A DNA stretch of 64,000 nucleotides from Methanocaldococcus vulcanius M7 (lineage in GTDB: Archaea > AGJL01 > Methanococci > Methanococcales > Methanocaldococcaceae): the NCBI RefSeq assembly GCF_000024625.1, contig NC_013407.1, positions 62,001-126,000 of the forward strand. The letters run 5' to 3'. The notes beneath the pieces are model-generated. The model ran no database searches. It had not been told where the DNA came from and saw only the letters and a list, made by a program, of their open reading frames with translations. The stretch's first letter is position 1, and every line of letters starts with the position of its first letter. Positions 50,899 to 59,754 of this stretch are shown here, in pieces. The translations under genes and the position numbers were made by a program.

Positions 50899-53800
50899 AT
50901 GGTAAAGATTGGCTTTGTTTCAACAATAGACAATGATGATTTGGTCTTTGAGGAGGCATATAAAGAAGTTAAAAAATATGGAATAGAATTTAAAATATTG
51001 GATTATAAATGCTCTAAAAAGGAGTTTGAGGAGTTTTTAAAATATATTAAAGATGCAAATATTGTCTTCACAAAACTCATGGGAGGAAAGGATGCATTTA
51101 AATATTATGATGAGTTGGCAAAATTTTGTAAAGAACATGATATTCCCTTCCTACCTCTTCCAACATTAAACGAATTTCATCCAGATTTAGAGAAAGATAG
51201 AACAGTAGAGGATAATATAAAAGAAAAAGTCGTAAAATATTTGGGATATGAGGGAGTTTATAATTATAAAAACCTCCTTATATATTTGGCAAATAAATTT
51301 GGAAACTTAGATGTAAGTTATGAAGAACCAAAGCCAATGCCATGGCAAGGAATTTATTACAGAGGAAGATACTTTGAAACTCTCGAAGATTACCTTAAAT
51401 ATTTAAAAAAATTAAATAAAGATTTAAACAAACCAATAATAGGGATTTTATTTTATAGAAACTGGTTTATAGCAAATAATATTGACTATATAAACGATTT
51501 AATTGATATGATTGAAAAAAAAGGAGCAATTCCAATAGCTGTTTTTTGCTCTCATCTAAAAAATGAACTTGGTTCAATAGGAACAGTTGAAACATTTAAA
51601 AGATTTTTTTATAAAGATGGAAAACCAATCATATCTGCTTTAATAAACACCACAATGTTTACTTTAACAATGGGGACAAAACCAGAACTCTTAAAAGATG
51701 AACCTGAGTTTTTAAAACATCTAAATACACCACTTCTTCAGGGAATCATTTCCACAGGATTTATAGAAGAGTGGAAAAACTCAATTGCTGGCTTAAATCC
51801 AATTGATTTAATTATCGGAATGGCAATGCCAGAGTTTGATGGGGCTATAATTCACTTTCCAATAGGAGGAAAGGAAAAGGTTAAGGATGGAGAAATAGGC
51901 GTTCCAATAATTAAGTATAGAGCAATAAAGGATAGGGCTGAAAAGATCGTCGATTTGTCTATAAAATATGCTAACTTAAAGCTTAAAGAAAATAAAGACA
52001 AAAAAATAGCCATAATTTTCCACAACTATCCACCAAGAAACGATAAGATAGCGAGTGCATTTGGTTTGGATAGCCCAGAAAGTGTTATCAACATTTTAAA
52101 AGAGATGAAAAAAAGGGGATTTATAGTTGATGAAATCCCAAAGAATGGGACTGAATTAATAAAGAAGATGTTAAATTACGCTACGAACGATAAAAGATTT
52201 TTAACAGAAGAGATGATCAAAAAGGCAGTTGGGAAGATAAAAAAAGAGGATTATGAGAAGTGGTTTAACTCTCTGCCCGAAAAAGTTAAAAAAAAGCTGA
52301 TAAAAAACTGGGGAGAAATTCCAGGAGAGGTTATGAACTTTGATAATAACTTGATCATTCCCGGAATAATCAATGGGAATATATTCATCTCAGTTCAGCC
52401 ACCAAGGGGCTTCGGAGAAAATCCCTCAGCAATTTATCACTCTCCAGATCTTCCTCCAACTCATTATTACATTGCCTTTTATAAATGGATTAAGGAGGTT
52501 TTCAAAGCAGATGTAGTTATGCATATAGGAAAGCATGGAAACTTAGAATGGCTTCCCGGAAAGTGTGTTGGTTTATCTAATGAATGCTATCCAGATGTAT
52601 GTATGGAATTGCCGAATATCTATCCCTACATAGTAAATAATCCAGGAGAGGGGACACAGGCAAAGAGGAGAAGTTATGCAACAATTATAAGCCATTTAAT
52701 CCCACCAATGACAACATCCGATCTTTATGGAGAACTTGCAGAATTGGAGAAGGAGATAGATGACTACTATGAAACAGACAACAAGGAAAAGAAAGAGTTT
52801 CTAAAAAATGAGATAATTAAAAAAATTAAGGACTTAAAATTAGATGAAGACCTGTTAGATGGAAAAACAGTTGATGAAGGGATAACAAAAGACAACTTTG
52901 AAAAACTTCTGAATAAAATTCATGACTACTTAGAAACGTTAAAAAATAGGCAGATAAATGAAGGACTGCATATAATGGGCGTTTCTTTGGAAGGAGAGAA
53001 GTTGATAAATATGATTTTTATGATAATAAGATACCAATTTGAATATTTGGAAAACTTGGCTAATGCATTAAACTACAACTGGAAAGAATTAAACGAAGAC
53101 AAAGGCAAAAACCATAAGATAATAGACGAAATTTATAAAATCGGGTTAGAATTATTGAAGGAGTATATGGAACACAACTTTGATGAGAAAGAAATCAACA
53201 ACCTAAAAACCATCGATTTAACAAAAAATGAAAAATTGAAAGAAATTTTAAAAATTGTCTCAACAATCTATAAAAATCTTATGAGAGTTGATGAGGAAAT
53301 AATAAATGCAGTTAATGCCTTAGAGGGCTCTTACATTCCTCCAAGAGTTGCAGGAGCTCCAACTAAGGATATAAATTGCCTTCCAACTGGAAGAAATTTT
53401 TACTCGTGTAATCCACAAGAGATTCCAACGAAATCTGCCTATGAGATGGGTAAAAAATTGGCTGAGGACTTAATTAGCAAATATCTAAAAGAAGAAGGGA
53501 AATATCCTGAATATATAGGCGTTATCGTCTGGGGATCTCCAACTATGAGAACAAAAGGAGATGATATAGGAGAGATTTTGTATTTATTGGGAGTTAAGCC
53601 AGTTTGGAATAAGATGGGAAGAGTGGTTGGTTTAGAAGTTATTCCATTGGAAGAGTTAGGGAGACCAAGGATCGATGTAACTTTGAGAATCTCCGGGCTA
53701 TTTAGAGACACTTTTCCAAACGTTGTTGAACTTATAGATGAAGCAATAAGAATGGTTGCTAATTTAGATGAGCCAGACGAGATGAATTATATAAAAAAGC

Positions 53801-54591
53801 ACTATAAAAAAGAAATAGAAGAAAAAATAAAAAATGGAATAGATGAAGAAACAGCTAAAAGAACCTCTCTATATAGAATATTCAGCGACAAACCGGGCTG
53901 TTATGGAGCTGGTGTTTCTCATTTAATAGATGAGAAGAATTGGAAATCAATAGAGGACTTTGCAAAGGTTTATGTTGAGTGGGGGGGCTATGCCTATGGA
54001 AAGGGCTATTATGGAGTTGAAGCAAAAGAAGAGTTTATAAATCGTCTATCAAAGATTGAATTAACGGTTAAAAATGAAGATAGCCAAGAATGGGATATAT
54101 TTGAGGGAGATGACTTTAACAGTTATCATGGTGGTTTAATTGCCTCTGTAACCTATTACTCTGGCAAAAAACCAGTAAGTTATGTAGGGGATACATCAAA
54201 TCCAAATGATATAAGAACAAAACATCTAAAAGAAGAAGGAAAAGAAATATTTAGAACAAAAATCATGAATCCAAAATGGATCGAGGGATTAAAAAAACAT
54301 GGATATAAAGGAGCCGCTGACTTTTCAAAGTATGTTGATCATATGTTTGCATGGGATGCAACCTCTGGCATAATAGATGATTGGATGTATGAGAAGATTG
54401 CTGAGAAGTATGTGTTTGATAAAGATATGGAAGAGTTTTTTAAAGAAAATAATCCTTATGCTCTGCTAAATATAACTGAAAGGTTGTTGGAGGCAATAGA
54501 GAGAGGAATGTGGAAGGCAGATGAAGAGATGAAAGAGAAGCTGAGAAAGAAGTATTTAGAGATAGAGGGAATGATTGAAGAAAAACTATAA
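50899..54591 (+). CDS. cobN: CobN/BchH-type large chelatase subunit
   Basis: Large porphyrin-binding subunit of a class I (CobNST/ChlIDH) metal chelatase, 1230 residues. Family segments are IHFPIGGKEKV near residues 315-325, ISVQPPRGFGENPSAIYHSPDLPPTHYYIAFYKW near 495-528, VMHIGKHGNLEWLPGKCVGLS near 538-558 (the most conserved motif), GAPTKDINCLPTGRNFYSCNPQEIPT near 819-844, IGVIVWGSPTMRTKGDDIGEIL near 872-893, and CYGAGVSHLIDEKNW near 1001-1015. Works with AAA+ and VWA subunits; these are encoded in the chlI/chlD locus at 54825-56872. Most likely inserts cobalt for corrinoid synthesis. The ATG follows GGTGATAAA. Confidence 0.93.
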   Translation: MVKIGFVSTIDNDDLVFEEAYKEVKKYGIEFKILDYKCSKKEFEEFLKYIKDANIVFTKLMGGKDAFKYYDELAKFCKEHDIPFLPLPTLNEFHPDLEKDRTVEDNIKEKVVKYLGYEGVYNYKNLLIYLANKFGNLDVSYEEPKPMPWQGIYYRGRYFETLEDYLKYLKKLNKDLNKPIIGILFYRNWFIANNIDYINDLIDMIEKKGAIPIAVFCSHLKNELGSIGTVETFKRFFYKDGKPIISALINTTMFTLTMGTKPELLKDEPEFLKHLNTPLLQGIISTGFIEEWKNSIAGLNPIDLIIGMAMPEFDGAIIHFPIGGKEKVKDGEIGVPIIKYRAIKDRAEKIVDLSIKYANLKLKENKDKKIAIIFHNYPPRNDKIASAFGLDSPESVINILKEMKKRGFIVDEIPKNGTELIKKMLNYATNDKRFLTEEMIKKAVGKIKKEDYEKWFNSLPEKVKKKLIKNWGEIPGEVMNFDNNLIIPGIINGNIFISVQPPRGFGENPSAIYHSPDLPPTHYYIAFYKWIKEVFKADVVMHIGKHGNLEWLPGKCVGLSNECYPDVCMELPNIYPYIVNNPGEGTQAKRRSYATIISHLIPPMTTSDLYGELAELEKEIDDYYETDNKEKKEFLKNEIIKKIKDLKLDEDLLDGKTVDEGITKDNFEKLLNKIHDYLETLKNRQINEGLHIMGVSLEGEKLINMIFMIIRYQFEYLENLANALNYNWKELNEDKGKNHKIIDEIYKIGLELLKEYMEHNFDEKEINNLKTIDLTKNEKLKEILKIVSTIYKNLMRVDEEIINAVNALEGSYIPPRVAGAPTKDINCLPTGRNFYSCNPQEIPTKSAYEMGKKLAEDLISKYLKEEGKYPEYIGVIVWGSPTMRTKGDDIGEILYLLGVKPVWNKMGRVVGLEVIPLEELGRPRIDVTLRISGLFRDTFPNVVELIDEAIRMVANLDEPDEMNYIKKHYKKEIEEKIKNGIDEETAKRTSLYRIFSDKPGCYGAGVSHLIDEKNWKSIEDFAKVYVEWGGYAYGKGYYGVEAKEEFINRLSKIELTVKNEDSQEWDIFEGDDFNSYHGGLIASVTYYSGKKPVSYVGDTSNPNDIRTKHLKEEGKEIFRTKIMNPKWIEGLKKHGYKGAADFSKYVDHMFAWDATSGIIDDWMYEKIAEKYVFDKDMEEFFKENNPYALLNITERLLEAIERGMWKADEEMKEKLRKKYLEIEGMIEEKL

Positions 54592-54646: not shown

Positions 54647-54835
54647 ATGTCAGAAATTATTGAGGTTATTTATGAGGATGGTGTTTTAAAGCCATTAAAA
54701 CCATTAAAAATAAAGGATAAAAAGAGATTAAAAATTAAAATTGTTGATGAGAGTGTTGAAGAGTTCTTAAAATCCATGATAATAAAAAGTGTAAATTATA
54801 AAAAATCAAAAGAGGCATGCTACATTAGAAGGTAA
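54647..54835 (+). CDS. AF2212-type (DUF104) antitoxin, apparently orphan
   Basis: A 62-residue protein with the DUF104 signature IIEVIYEDGVLKPLKPLKIKDKKRLKIKIV at residues 3-32, the beta-hairpin DNA-binding antitoxin family usually paired with a VapC/PIN toxin just downstream. Here no PIN-domain gene follows: the chlD 3' end lies on the opposite strand and overlaps the last 11 bases. So the partner is elsewhere or lost. The ATG follows TGGTGGTTTAA. A family match with good length, function inferred. Confidence 0.82.
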   Translation: MSEIIEVIYEDGVLKPLKPLKIKDKKRLKIKIVDESVEEFLKSMIIKSVNYKKSKEACYIRR

Positions 54836-55799
54836 TTTCTAAGCCCTTACAAATATCTAAGATTTTATCTTTACTCAACTCCTCTATTTTATAATACTTA
54901 AATCCAAATCTATTAGCAATCTCTCTCCCAATCCCAATTTTTATAAATGATTGTGGCTCTGTATCAATTAATATAACGTTAATTCCCTTCTCAGCTATCT
55001 TCTCACATGCATCGAAAACCTCTTTAACATAATCCTCTTTAACAGCCACATTTGGTTTGAAATCACTAATTACAATCATTATTGGGATAATATTTGGATT
55101 TTTTCTAATCTCTCTGTCAAAGACCTCATAACTCTTAATAAAAGCATCAGCTAATGGAGTTTTTCCTCCTGTTGGTAAATCTTTTAATAGTTTTTCTCCA
55201 AGCTCTACTGAGGATGTGAATGGCAAGATTAACTCTGCCTTATCCTTTCTAAATGCAATCATTCCAATTTTATTCCTCTTTTGATATGCATCTAAGAGTA
55301 GAGAGATTATTGCTCCCTTAGCTGCCTCCATCCTTCTCATTGCTCCCATTGAACCACTTGCATCAACAACAAATAATATATGGGAGGATATCTTCCTCTG
55401 TCTAACTTTCTCAACAATATCCTCTTTTTCTAAATATATGGCTAATTTTTTATCTGCCTTTTCTCTTCTCTTTTTTTGATGAATAGCAGATCTTCTAAAT
55501 GTTGCGTCAAAGGCAATATCGTTGGTTTTATCCTTTGGTAATCTAAATTTTACATATCTTCCTCTTCTACTAAAACTTTTAATATGCCTTCCAGAACTAT
55601 ATCTATGGATATTATCTTTAAGTTTAAACTGTATAAAGTTGGGATTTACTTTAAAACTCTCATCTATACCAAAGGTTTGCTCAAAATCTCCATTTTTATC
55701 GTTTTTATTTTGATCATCATTATGATCATTTTGATCATTTGAGTTATTGTCTGATTCTTCCTCAGATCTATTATTTATTTCATCATGTTTTTTTTTACG
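54825..55799 (-). CDS. chlD: Chelatase VWA subunit (ChlD C-terminal half), read by frame change from the chlI frame
   Basis: Open frame of about 324 codons with no ATG, GTG or TTG before its conserved part; it is bounded upstream by TGA at 55802-55800, and the first ATG is inside the metal site. It encodes an acidic/Asn-rich linker (with runs such as [14 protein letters not shown]), a conserved basic segment ([16 protein letters not shown]), and the VWA domain [23 protein letters not shown] (D-x-S-x-S), [16 protein letters not shown], and [16 protein letters not shown]. This is the C-terminal half of ChlD/CobT-like medium subunits. Without its own start it must be translated by a -1 shift (or an added A) at the A9 run at 55788-55796. 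Confidence 0.88.
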
Positions 55800-56872
55800 T
55801 CATCATCTTTTTGATCTTCTTTTTCTTTATTCTCATTTTCATTTTTATCATTTTCCTGTTTAAATTCATTAATCATCTGCTCCAACTTCTCCTTATTTAA
55901 TTGTGGTGGTTCAAACGGCTTTCTTCTCATTCTATGTGGGAGAGCCAACTCCATTGCCTCTTTAACATCCTCTAAAATAACTTCTGTTCTTCCATTATAA
56001 GCAGATAACGCCTTAGCTGTTCTAACAACAGTTATATCTGCCCTATTTGTCTGAATTCCTAACTCAATACAAACCTTTGATATAAATTCTAAGAGATCAT
56101 CACTTATCTCAACATCTTTTAAAAGTTCTCTTGCTTTAATTATTCTATCTCTTAATTTGTTCTGCTCTTCCTCAAATTTCTTATAAAATGCCTCTGGATT
56201 TTCGTTGAATTCCTCAACTCTCTTTATAACCTCTACTCTTTCCTTAACATCATTCAGCCCTTCAACATCGACCATTAAACCAAATCTATCTAAGATTTGG
56301 GGTCTCAACTCCCCTTCCTCTGGGTTCATAGTCCCTACTAATATAAATCTTGAAGGATGCTTTATCTTAACTCCTTCCCTCTCAATGATATTCCAGCCCA
56401 TCGCTGCAGCATCCAACAACACATCAATTATATGGTCATCCAGTAAATTAACTTCATCAATGTATAGGATATTTCTATTTGCCTCTGCTAAAATTCCTGG
56501 CTCTAATGCTTTAATTCCTTCTTTTATTGCCTTCTCTATATCCAATGTTCCGATAACCCTATCTTCCGTAGCTCCAATTGGGAGATTAACAACTTTCATC
56601 TTCTTTTTTATAGTTCTTAGTTCTCCTCTCTCTTTCTTTTCTTTGCAAATATCGCATAGGTCTCCATTTGGATCGCAGTTGAATGGACAGTTTTCAACAA
56701 CCTCAATCTCTGGCAACAGATCAGCCAAAGCTCTAACAGCGGTGGATTTCGCAGTCCCTTTCTCTCCTCTAATTAAGACACCGCCGATCTTAGGATTTAT
56801 TGCATTTAAGATTAATGCCTTCTTCATCTTTTCCTGTCCAACTATTGCTGTAAATGGATAAATATACTGCAT
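55775..56872 (-). CDS. chlI: Chelatase AAA+ subunit (ChlI-like), N-terminal frame of chlD
   Basis: AAA+ ATPase of 365 residues that drives the metal chelatase. The P-loop [20 protein letters not shown] is near residues 34-53, a four-Cys insert ([18 protein letters not shown]), Walker [22 protein letters not shown] near 132-152, the [20 protein letters not shown] sensor/arginine region near 179-198, and the sensor-2 segment. The end is a Glu/Lys/Asn-rich tail (about 325-365). The ATG at 56872 follows GTGATGATT; ATG 56878 is the alternative. It ends at TAA 55775, but the -1 frame remains open straight into the VWA domain. Shift at A9 (55796-55788, minus strand) would give a ChlD of about 682 residues. 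So one gene may make both ChlI and ChlD. Confidence 0.9.
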
Positions 56873-57070
56873 AATCATCACACTTTTTAATATTAATTTT
56901 TTATTTTTATGAGTAGTATAATACTTTTTATGTTATCTTAGGTAGGCATTAACTTATATTTAAAAGTTAATGTTGCTGAGATAAAATTAATTTTAATAAT
57001 GGTTGAGATGGAAAGATAAATACCTAAAGGTTTGTTAATAAAATTATGTGTCAAATTTATGGTGGAGATA

Positions 57071-57957: not shown

Positions 57958-58644
57958 TCACCTAAAATTCTCTAAAAACTTCCTTAATTCATTAAGTTCT
58001 TCTGATTCAAAATTCCAATAACCTTTTTCCGCCCCAATTCCAACAGAATTAACGATTTCTGGCATTATGGATAAATAAGCTAATGCTCTTGCCTTTGCGA
58101 TATTTTTAATTTTACCATTAGAATTTAAAAAATTATTCCTATAAAACCTTCTACTTTTAAAGTAATCATACTTTCCAAAAAATTCTTTTACCTTTCCTTC
58201 TTTATATAGTTTGTTAGCACATTCAATTAAATCATCTACACAACTAATTAAGGGATTATCTTTAACCGTTTTTAAACATAAATCTTCTAACATTCCTTCT
58301 TTGAAATTACCGGGCATAACATAAATACCAATTTTTGGAATTCCTTCTGAAAAAATATACATCTCTTGTGGTGAGTTTAGCCCTACATTTTTTAAAATAT
58401 CACAAACACTTTGAAAAGTTGTATAAGGATTATTATCAGCATCAATAATGATTCCAAAAGCAATAATGTTTTTAAAATTAGAATCTCTAATCCAAACTTT
58501 CAATTTATTTTTAAGATTGTTTTTTCCATCATATTTTAAAATTTGGACATCATATATGCCTAAAAAAATCAGAAATTCTTTAAAAAATCTTTTTTCATCT
58601 TCGCCCTCTACAATTAGTATTTTGTTTTTTGTTAAGGTTTCCAT
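57958..58644 (-). CDS. DUF3226 TOPRIM-like protein, partner of the AAA ATPase
   Basis: A 228-residue protein with a TOPRIM-type core at its start: [17 protein letters not shown] (Glu13 region, V-E-G-x-D-E) and [15 protein letters not shown] (D-A-D at residues 68-70), the acidic residues that bind metal in TOPRIM nucleases. The rest is helical, with [14 protein letters not shown] and [15 protein letters not shown]. It fits the DUF3226 family. TOPRIM proteins paired with an ABC-type AAA ATPase act as defence nucleases (OLD, Gabija, PARIS). The ATG immediately follows the ATPase stop (TAAATG), with GAGGT inside that gene's last codons, so the two are tightly coupled. Nuclease or defence function is inferred. 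Confidence 0.75.
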
Positions 58645-59754
58645 TTACCTCATCTCCCATTCCATATTAATAGCTTCTTTTAATGTTTCTTTATCATAAT
58701 CAATGGCTTTAAATTCATTGTTGTATCGTTCAATCCTATATAGCATAATATCAATATCTTTACTCTTCATATTTTCATAAACATCTATATATGCTTTTAT
58801 ACATTCCCATGAATGTGTTGTTGCGAATAATTGGACATTAAATTTCTTTGATGCTTCAAAAATTCCTCTCCACAAAATTTCTAATGATGTGTAATGCAAA
58901 CCATTCTCAATTTCATCTATAAAAACAAATCCATCTTTTGCATTGTATATTGCTGACAAAATAATTAATAATTTTAAAATTCCATCTCCCATAACGTTTA
59001 TCGGTATGAGTTTTTCAGCTTCTATATCACAATATATAATTCCCTCCGCCCCAATTCTCAGATCTTTTATAGAAGGTTCTATTTTTTGCAATATTTCTAT
59101 TATTTTGTCAATTTCTTTTGAAATTTGAAGTTTATTTATCCATTCTACCATATTACTTATATCTATCTTTGGTGATAAATATATTGATTTTTGTTCTTTT
59201 GCTAACCCCATTATTCGAGAAATTCTAACTCCAGTAGGTAGGGGAACAACAGATTTTATATTGTTATTCTCTTTAATTACAACTTTTTTTAATCTTCCTT
59301 CCCATATAGATATTTCATAAACTTTTACATTTTTTATATCTGAAACTTTAAAGGTTGTATAGTTTAAACGCAATCCTCCAATTGGAAATCCCCCAATATT
59401 TTCATCATACTTAATCTCACTTCCATCCATGTAATTTATAATAAGTTCTTTCATCTCATGTGAATTTATATAACCGCTAATTTTAATTGGAATGTTGGTA
59501 TTTATTTTATTAAAAATAGTTAATAATGCGTTATTAAAAACTTCTGAATCTTTATATATTTCCTTAAAGTTTTCAAAATTTCTAATATCAATTAAATTTA
59601 AAATAGTAAGTGGATTGCTTAGTAAATAGATTCCTTCAAGAACAGATGTCTTACCACAATTATTTTTTCCAACAAATAAATTAATTCTTTTTAAATCATC
59701 AATTTCAAGATTATTTATGCCTCTAAATGAATTAATTATAACTTTTTTAAACAT
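58645..59754 (-). CDS. AAA15/AAA21-type ABC ATPase of a two-gene TOPRIM system
   Basis: A 369-residue ABC-type ATPase of the OLD/RecF-like group. The P-loop FVGKNNCGKTSVLEG is at residues 28-42, a signature-like NVMGDGILKLLIILSAI at 253-269, Walker B GFVFIDEIENGLHY at 275-288, and the H-loop LFATTHSWECI at 309-319. The short middle replaces the long coiled coil of SMC proteins, as in AriA of PARIS and similar proteins. The ATG overlaps the end of coaBC by 8 bases, and the stop touches the TOPRIM gene. Best reading: sensor ATPase of a PARIS- or OLD-like anti-invader module. A general RecF/OLD-like repair role is the alternative. Confidence 0.82.
   Translation of the reverse strand: MFKKVIINSFRGINNLEIDDLKRINLFVGKNNCGKTSVLEGIYLLSNPLTILNLIDIRNFENFKEIYKDSEVFNNALLTIFNKINTNIPIKISGYINSHEMKELIINYMDGSEIKYDENIGGFPIGGLRLNYTTFKVSDIKNVKVYEISIWEGRLKKVVIKENNNIKSVVPLPTGVRISRIMGLAKEQKSIYLSPKIDISNMVEWINKLQISKEIDKIIEILQKIEPSIKDLRIGAEGIIYCDIEAEKLIPINVMGDGILKLLIILSAIYNAKDGFVFIDEIENGLHYTSLEILWRGIFEASKKFNVQLFATTHSWECIKAYIDVYENMKSKDIDIMLYRIERYNNEFKAIDYDKETLKEAINMEWEMR

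Follow-up and report, generated by a model that had tools for sequence, protein, structure and literature searches.

The analyzed window, a stretch of 64,000 nucleotides from Methanocaldococcus vulcanius M7 (NC_013407.1, positions 62,001 to 126,000), carries on its minus strand a chlD gene divided between two reading frames. Direct reading and translation of positions 54825–56881 on this strand revealed that AAA+ and VWA halves are encoded in frames with a -1 relation that overlap by 22 nt (Table 1). The 0 frame passes through a run of exactly nine A nucleotides (A9) as GAT GAC GTA AAA AAA AAC ATG ATG AAA TAA, while the -1 frame reads TGA CGT AAA AAA AAA CAT GAT GAA and then stays open for 324 residues to its stop at 54825. 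The first ATG/GTG/TTG codon of the -1 frame is ATG 55349, coding for the Met of the DASGSM motif inside the VWA domain, and scanning of this frame in the M. vulcanius gene identified no ATG, GTG, or TTG ahead of the MIDAS motif. A -1 slip at the run fuses both frames into 682 residues counted from ATG 56872, compared to 365 for the short form; ATG 56878 and GTG 56881 lie in the same frame and are possible alternative starts. A preliminary description of this DNA had reported the A9 frame change with the TAA and TGA codons that bound it, the VWA half lacking a start codon of its own, and the 365- and 682-residue products obtained by reading one A twice, and all of these were reproduced.

Table 1. 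Features of the chlD locus of M. vulcanius M7 and its cobN neighbor (positions of the window).
Feature	Coordinates	Strand	Description and evidence
cobN-type large chelatase subunit	50899..54591	+	Convergent neighbor of chlD; family matches
-1 frame, acidic linker and VWA/MIDAS domain	54825..55799	-	VWA_2 4.5e-12; TIGR02442 positions 347–641
0-frame stop TAA	55775..55777	-	4 codons past AAC; direct reading
A9 slippery run	55788..55796	-	Frame nTA AAA AAA AAC; includes A_AAA_AAA and A_AAA_AAC; A9C conserved
TGA closing the -1 frame upstream of A9	55800..55802	-	Direct reading
ChlI-like AAA+ 0-frame ORF	55775..56872	-	365 aa from ATG 56872; translation, TIGR02442/TIGR02030 matches, ChlI/BchI structures

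Protein family analysis assigned both halves to the chelatases. The AAA half corresponded to positions 1–354 of TIGR02442 (putative cobaltochelatase), scored 452.7 bits against TIGR02030 (BchI-ChlI), slightly below the cut-off of 466.95, and matched solved ChlI/BchI structures with E ≤ 9e-98. The order of domains, a ChlI-type AAA+ with Walker A/B followed by a VWA domain with MIDAS (DASGSM), is that of the I and D subunits of cobaltochelatases and Mg-chelatases. The preliminary description had also placed cobN next to chlD, and the adjacency was found both here and in many relatives, with cobN lying directly beside chlD not only in M. vulcanius but also in at least 13 relatives. The two genes were convergent in G001, G004, G006, G008, and G012, divergent in G011, G015, G017, G020, G024, and G028, and on the same strand in G022 and G042; adjacency in all three layouts makes the functional tie between cobN and chlD stronger than a single shared position would. 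The M. vulcanius genome contains two full-length cobN genes (PF02514), the second of them away from chlD. In five other Methanococcales genomes (G018, G019, G029, G030, and G032), cobN-family genes were present but chlD searches gave only weak AAA matches, such that CobN may work without ChlID in these taxa.

A separate ChlI-like small-subunit gene was not found in the whole genome by family and protein searches, which returned only the chlD locus and weak AAA proteins of differing size; the lack of another chlI, first noticed within the window, therefore extends to the genome. Frameshifted chlD genes (fs-chlD) share this combination of cobN present and small-subunit gene absent. The archaea with a continuous chlD in G037, G042, and G059 likewise displayed no separate ORF of small-subunit size, so that a missing chlI does not by itself show that frameshifting is needed, and two chlD products may not be obligatory. 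The strong match to the fs-chlD scheme proposed beforehand stands with regard to conservation, chlI absence, and the published genus, with the qualification that a missing chlI carries less weight than it first seems to. Two side observations were made elsewhere in the window and genome. An AAA_15 ATPase (58645–59754) and a DUF3226 protein (57958–58644) are encoded by abutting genes at 57958–59754 on the minus strand of the window, and their matches to the PADLOC profiles AbiLi (3.5e-63) and PDC-M38A/PDC-M38B make them a candidate anti-phage defense pair. In addition, a small replicon of the genome (G000:C2, 10,704 bp; L199) is, over part of its length, 88% identical in DNA to a plasmid of Thermococcus sp. 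AMT7.

The homologue survey covered 61 genomes and included 25 Methanococcales chlD genes readable through both halves, 23 of which had the identical -1 frame break at a run of six to eleven A. The run was A9C in 19 of the broken genes, two of which (L034 and L035) represent a divergent copy with the run in another codon phase. L015 alone had A11C, and the remaining three had A6C or A6T directly followed by a 0-frame TAG. The last group (L028 in G025, L029 in G021, and L030 in G026) has a shortened shift site TCA AAA AAY TAG, equivalent to A_AAA_AAC/T plus an instant 0-frame stop. Codon invariance was evaluated in 20 Methanococcales chlD genes from the four other genera, where both Lys codons of the run were AAA in 20/20 and AAC came next in 19/20. 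Among the other invariant Lys columns of the same genes just 1 of 16 was all AAA, and none of the invariant Asn columns was all AAC, though AAT and AAC occur across these genes in a ratio of 713:254. The A9C codons are invariant inside an otherwise variable linker, and the A-rich slippery site in the overlap is conserved among relatives, both within the genus and across the Methanococcales, as the check proposed with the original observation called for. Compared to close congeners, dN/dS was 0.025–0.10 for the AAA half and 0.095–0.17 for the VWA half, values that indicate purifying selection on both. Runs of nine or more A occur 15 times in the 1.76-Mb genome (10 intergenic, one antisense in an ORF, and four sense in an ORF), and the chlD run was the only one joining two long ORFs in different frames; these counts and the codon invariance speak against a chance occurrence of the site. 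Beyond the Methanococcales, one continuous protein was encoded by most of the archaeal homologues retrieved (Methanosarcinales, Methanophagales, and others), and two bacterial MAG loci (L075 and L112) had their own frame breaks at A9 or A10. A runs are common in the Lys/Glu-rich linkers of continuous chlD genes outside the Methanococcales, so no conclusion on slip-prone sites was drawn for them.

With high probability, the gene is an fs-chlD in which normal decoding yields the small subunit and a slip yields the medium subunit, as the preliminary description had suggested; run conservation, dN/dS, the lack of chlI, cobN linkage, and the literature all support a programmed -1 frameshift making two chelatase subunits. 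Normal decoding would produce the 365-residue ChlI-like AAA+ small subunit, ending just past the run, while in a fraction of decoding events a one-A slip at the run (net -1) would lead on into the VWA half and give the 682-residue ChlD-like medium subunit. Joined by the CobN-type large subunit, the two products would assemble into a metal chelatase of three subunits that is probably cobaltochelatase-like. The analysis demonstrated the two frames, conservation of the run, purifying selection acting on each half, the lack of any other small-subunit gene, and linkage to cobN, whereas the synthesis of both proteins, the ratio between them, the complex they would form, and the metal it would insert are inferred. 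The 22-nt overlap is a layout common in coupled genes and might instead reflect two proteins initiated separately, either from an internal start or by re-initiation coupled at the overlap, with no fusion made. An independently initiated VWA half was rejected as its start codon is missing: ATG/GTG/TTG are absent ahead of the MIDAS motif from the M. vulcanius gene, L009, L019, and L025 and only scattered in others. As the protein is also continuous in two close relatives and in the majority of other archaea, this alternative is very improbable. Homopolymer runs are prone to sequencing error, but 23 species-level genomes that were assembled independently share the break and both halves have low dN/dS, which rules out an error or a decaying pseudogene with near certainty.

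The slip itself may occur in translation or in transcription, and ribosomal slippage of tRNA-Lys on A_AAA_AAA is modestly favored over RNA polymerase slippage on A9. The A6 variants with their instant 0-frame TAG in three relatives fit a ribosomal event and are too short for efficient slippage by the polymerase. A tRNA scan of the M. vulcanius genome identified one tRNA-Lys (UUU) and no CUU among 36 tRNA loci, one of them without an ARAGORN call and one without an anticodon. If the RNA polymerase slipped, mRNAs with 10 A would encode the fusion and those with 9 A the short form, ribosomes would read normally, and the protein outcome would be unchanged. This alternative is rather unlikely, and several features are nevertheless in its favor. 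Nine A is the classic length for strong bacterial RNA polymerase slippage, with a precedent in Thermus thermophilus dnaX, which qualifies the term ribosomal for chlD. The published efficiency climbs with run length, as cassettes from the magnesium-chelatase family in E. coli gave 63% (A11), 40% (A9), and 10% (A7) frameshifting (PMC3711429), and runs of at least nine A are depleted in the ORFs of the M. vulcanius genome. No stimulatory RNA structure is conserved either: many relatives had no predicted structure over 60–90 nt, the M. vulcanius gene had only a weak local fold (z of approximately -3 for both 40 and 90 nt), and neither a structure common to the Methanococcales relatives, such as the downstream stimulatory structure usual but not obligatory in fs-chlD, nor a conserved internal Shine-Dalgarno-like element was identified across relatives. 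Against polymerase slippage, heterogeneous slippage would favor stops that come early in the third, unused frame, and those observed came no earlier than codon shuffles predict (mean p 0.44). A literature search also yielded no report of an archaeal RNA polymerase slipping productively. On balance, slippage on the ribosome is the preferred route to the medium subunit.

The two continuous Methanococcales genes, L022 (G017) and L027 (G027) from the Methanococcaceae, owe their single frame to a 1-nt difference beside the run and retain A9C in frame at the same codon positions. With an extra A, decoding would reach a stop after 5 or 11 codons, and with two extra (or one lost) after 8 or 7 codons, such that slippage in these genes would make a short product instead of the fusion. 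The tree separates them by pairing the broken L021 with L027 (90/73, weak), while dS places L021 nearest to L022; under both arrangements, A9C was kept through two or more changes of the frame relation. Selection in the Methanococcales might accordingly maintain the slippery A9C rather than the frame break, with the pair of products kept and the slip-dependent one swapped, possibly by polymerase slippage, although we put this forward tentatively and judge it somewhat less probable than its contrary. The reversed polarity is only suggestive, as these genes have diverged only moderately (dS 0.5–1.1) and 2 of the 25 other runs of nine or more A checked in G017 also sit in ORFs in sense, which weakens the retained A9 of this genome as proof of selection. 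Continuous genes that retain A9C are apparently a new but modest observation. A continuous chlD with in-frame A9C at codon 444 was also found in two Thermodesulfobacteriota/Deltaproteobacteria loci (L113 and L116), where the frame reached by one added A stops 4 codons on, possibly the same reversed layout as in L022 and L027.

The frameshift interpretation of Methanocaldococcus chlD is already published. Programmed frameshifting of chlD in bacteria and archaea, mentioned in the preliminary description, is documented for a 23-gene magnesium-chelatase cluster with -1 frameshifts that explicitly includes Methanocaldococcus and Methanococcus (Antonov et al., 2013; PMC3711429). The chelatase frameshift was repeated with M. 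fervens named (Kuznetsov et al., 2022; PMC9227772) and the magnesium-chelatase -1 frameshift in a 2016 review (PMC5009743), and a 2021 review of archaeal recoding (PMC8211752) counts a single proven -1 case in archaea (Saccharolobus fucA1) and classes chlD as presumed. Very few chromosomal genes of archaea are candidates for programmed frameshifting, chlD among them, and detection of both products in a Methanocaldococcus would provide the second proven archaeal -1 case. The remaining interest lies in the level of slippage in archaea and in the relatives whose continuous gene keeps A9C. Naturally occurring variants (A9, A11, A6 plus instant stop, and continuous with A9C) constitute a ready set to separate ribosomal from polymerase slippage in hyperthermophiles.

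Compared to known systems, the M. vulcanius locus shares with the published fs-chlD (PMC3711429, PMC9227772) the gene, the genus, the -1 direction, the A-run site between the AAA and VWA halves, the presence of cobN, and the absence of a small-subunit gene. The shift site given in reviews is A_AAA_AAR, whereas L028–L030 have A_AAA_AAC/T directly before TAG, and the strong downstream stem-loop potential described for fs-chlD of Pseudomonas (PMC5009743) has no conserved counterpart in the Methanococcales. The two halves combined span the whole TIGR02442 model of the ChlID type (1–354 and 347–641 of 641), the difference being their encoding in two frames, with neither half alone reaching the curated cut-off. 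In T. thermophilus dnaX, transcriptional slippage at A9 likewise gives a long and a short product from one gene with a bare A9 run. The template frame of dnaX encodes the long product, a layout shared by L022 and L027, whereas that of M. vulcanius chlD encodes the short one.
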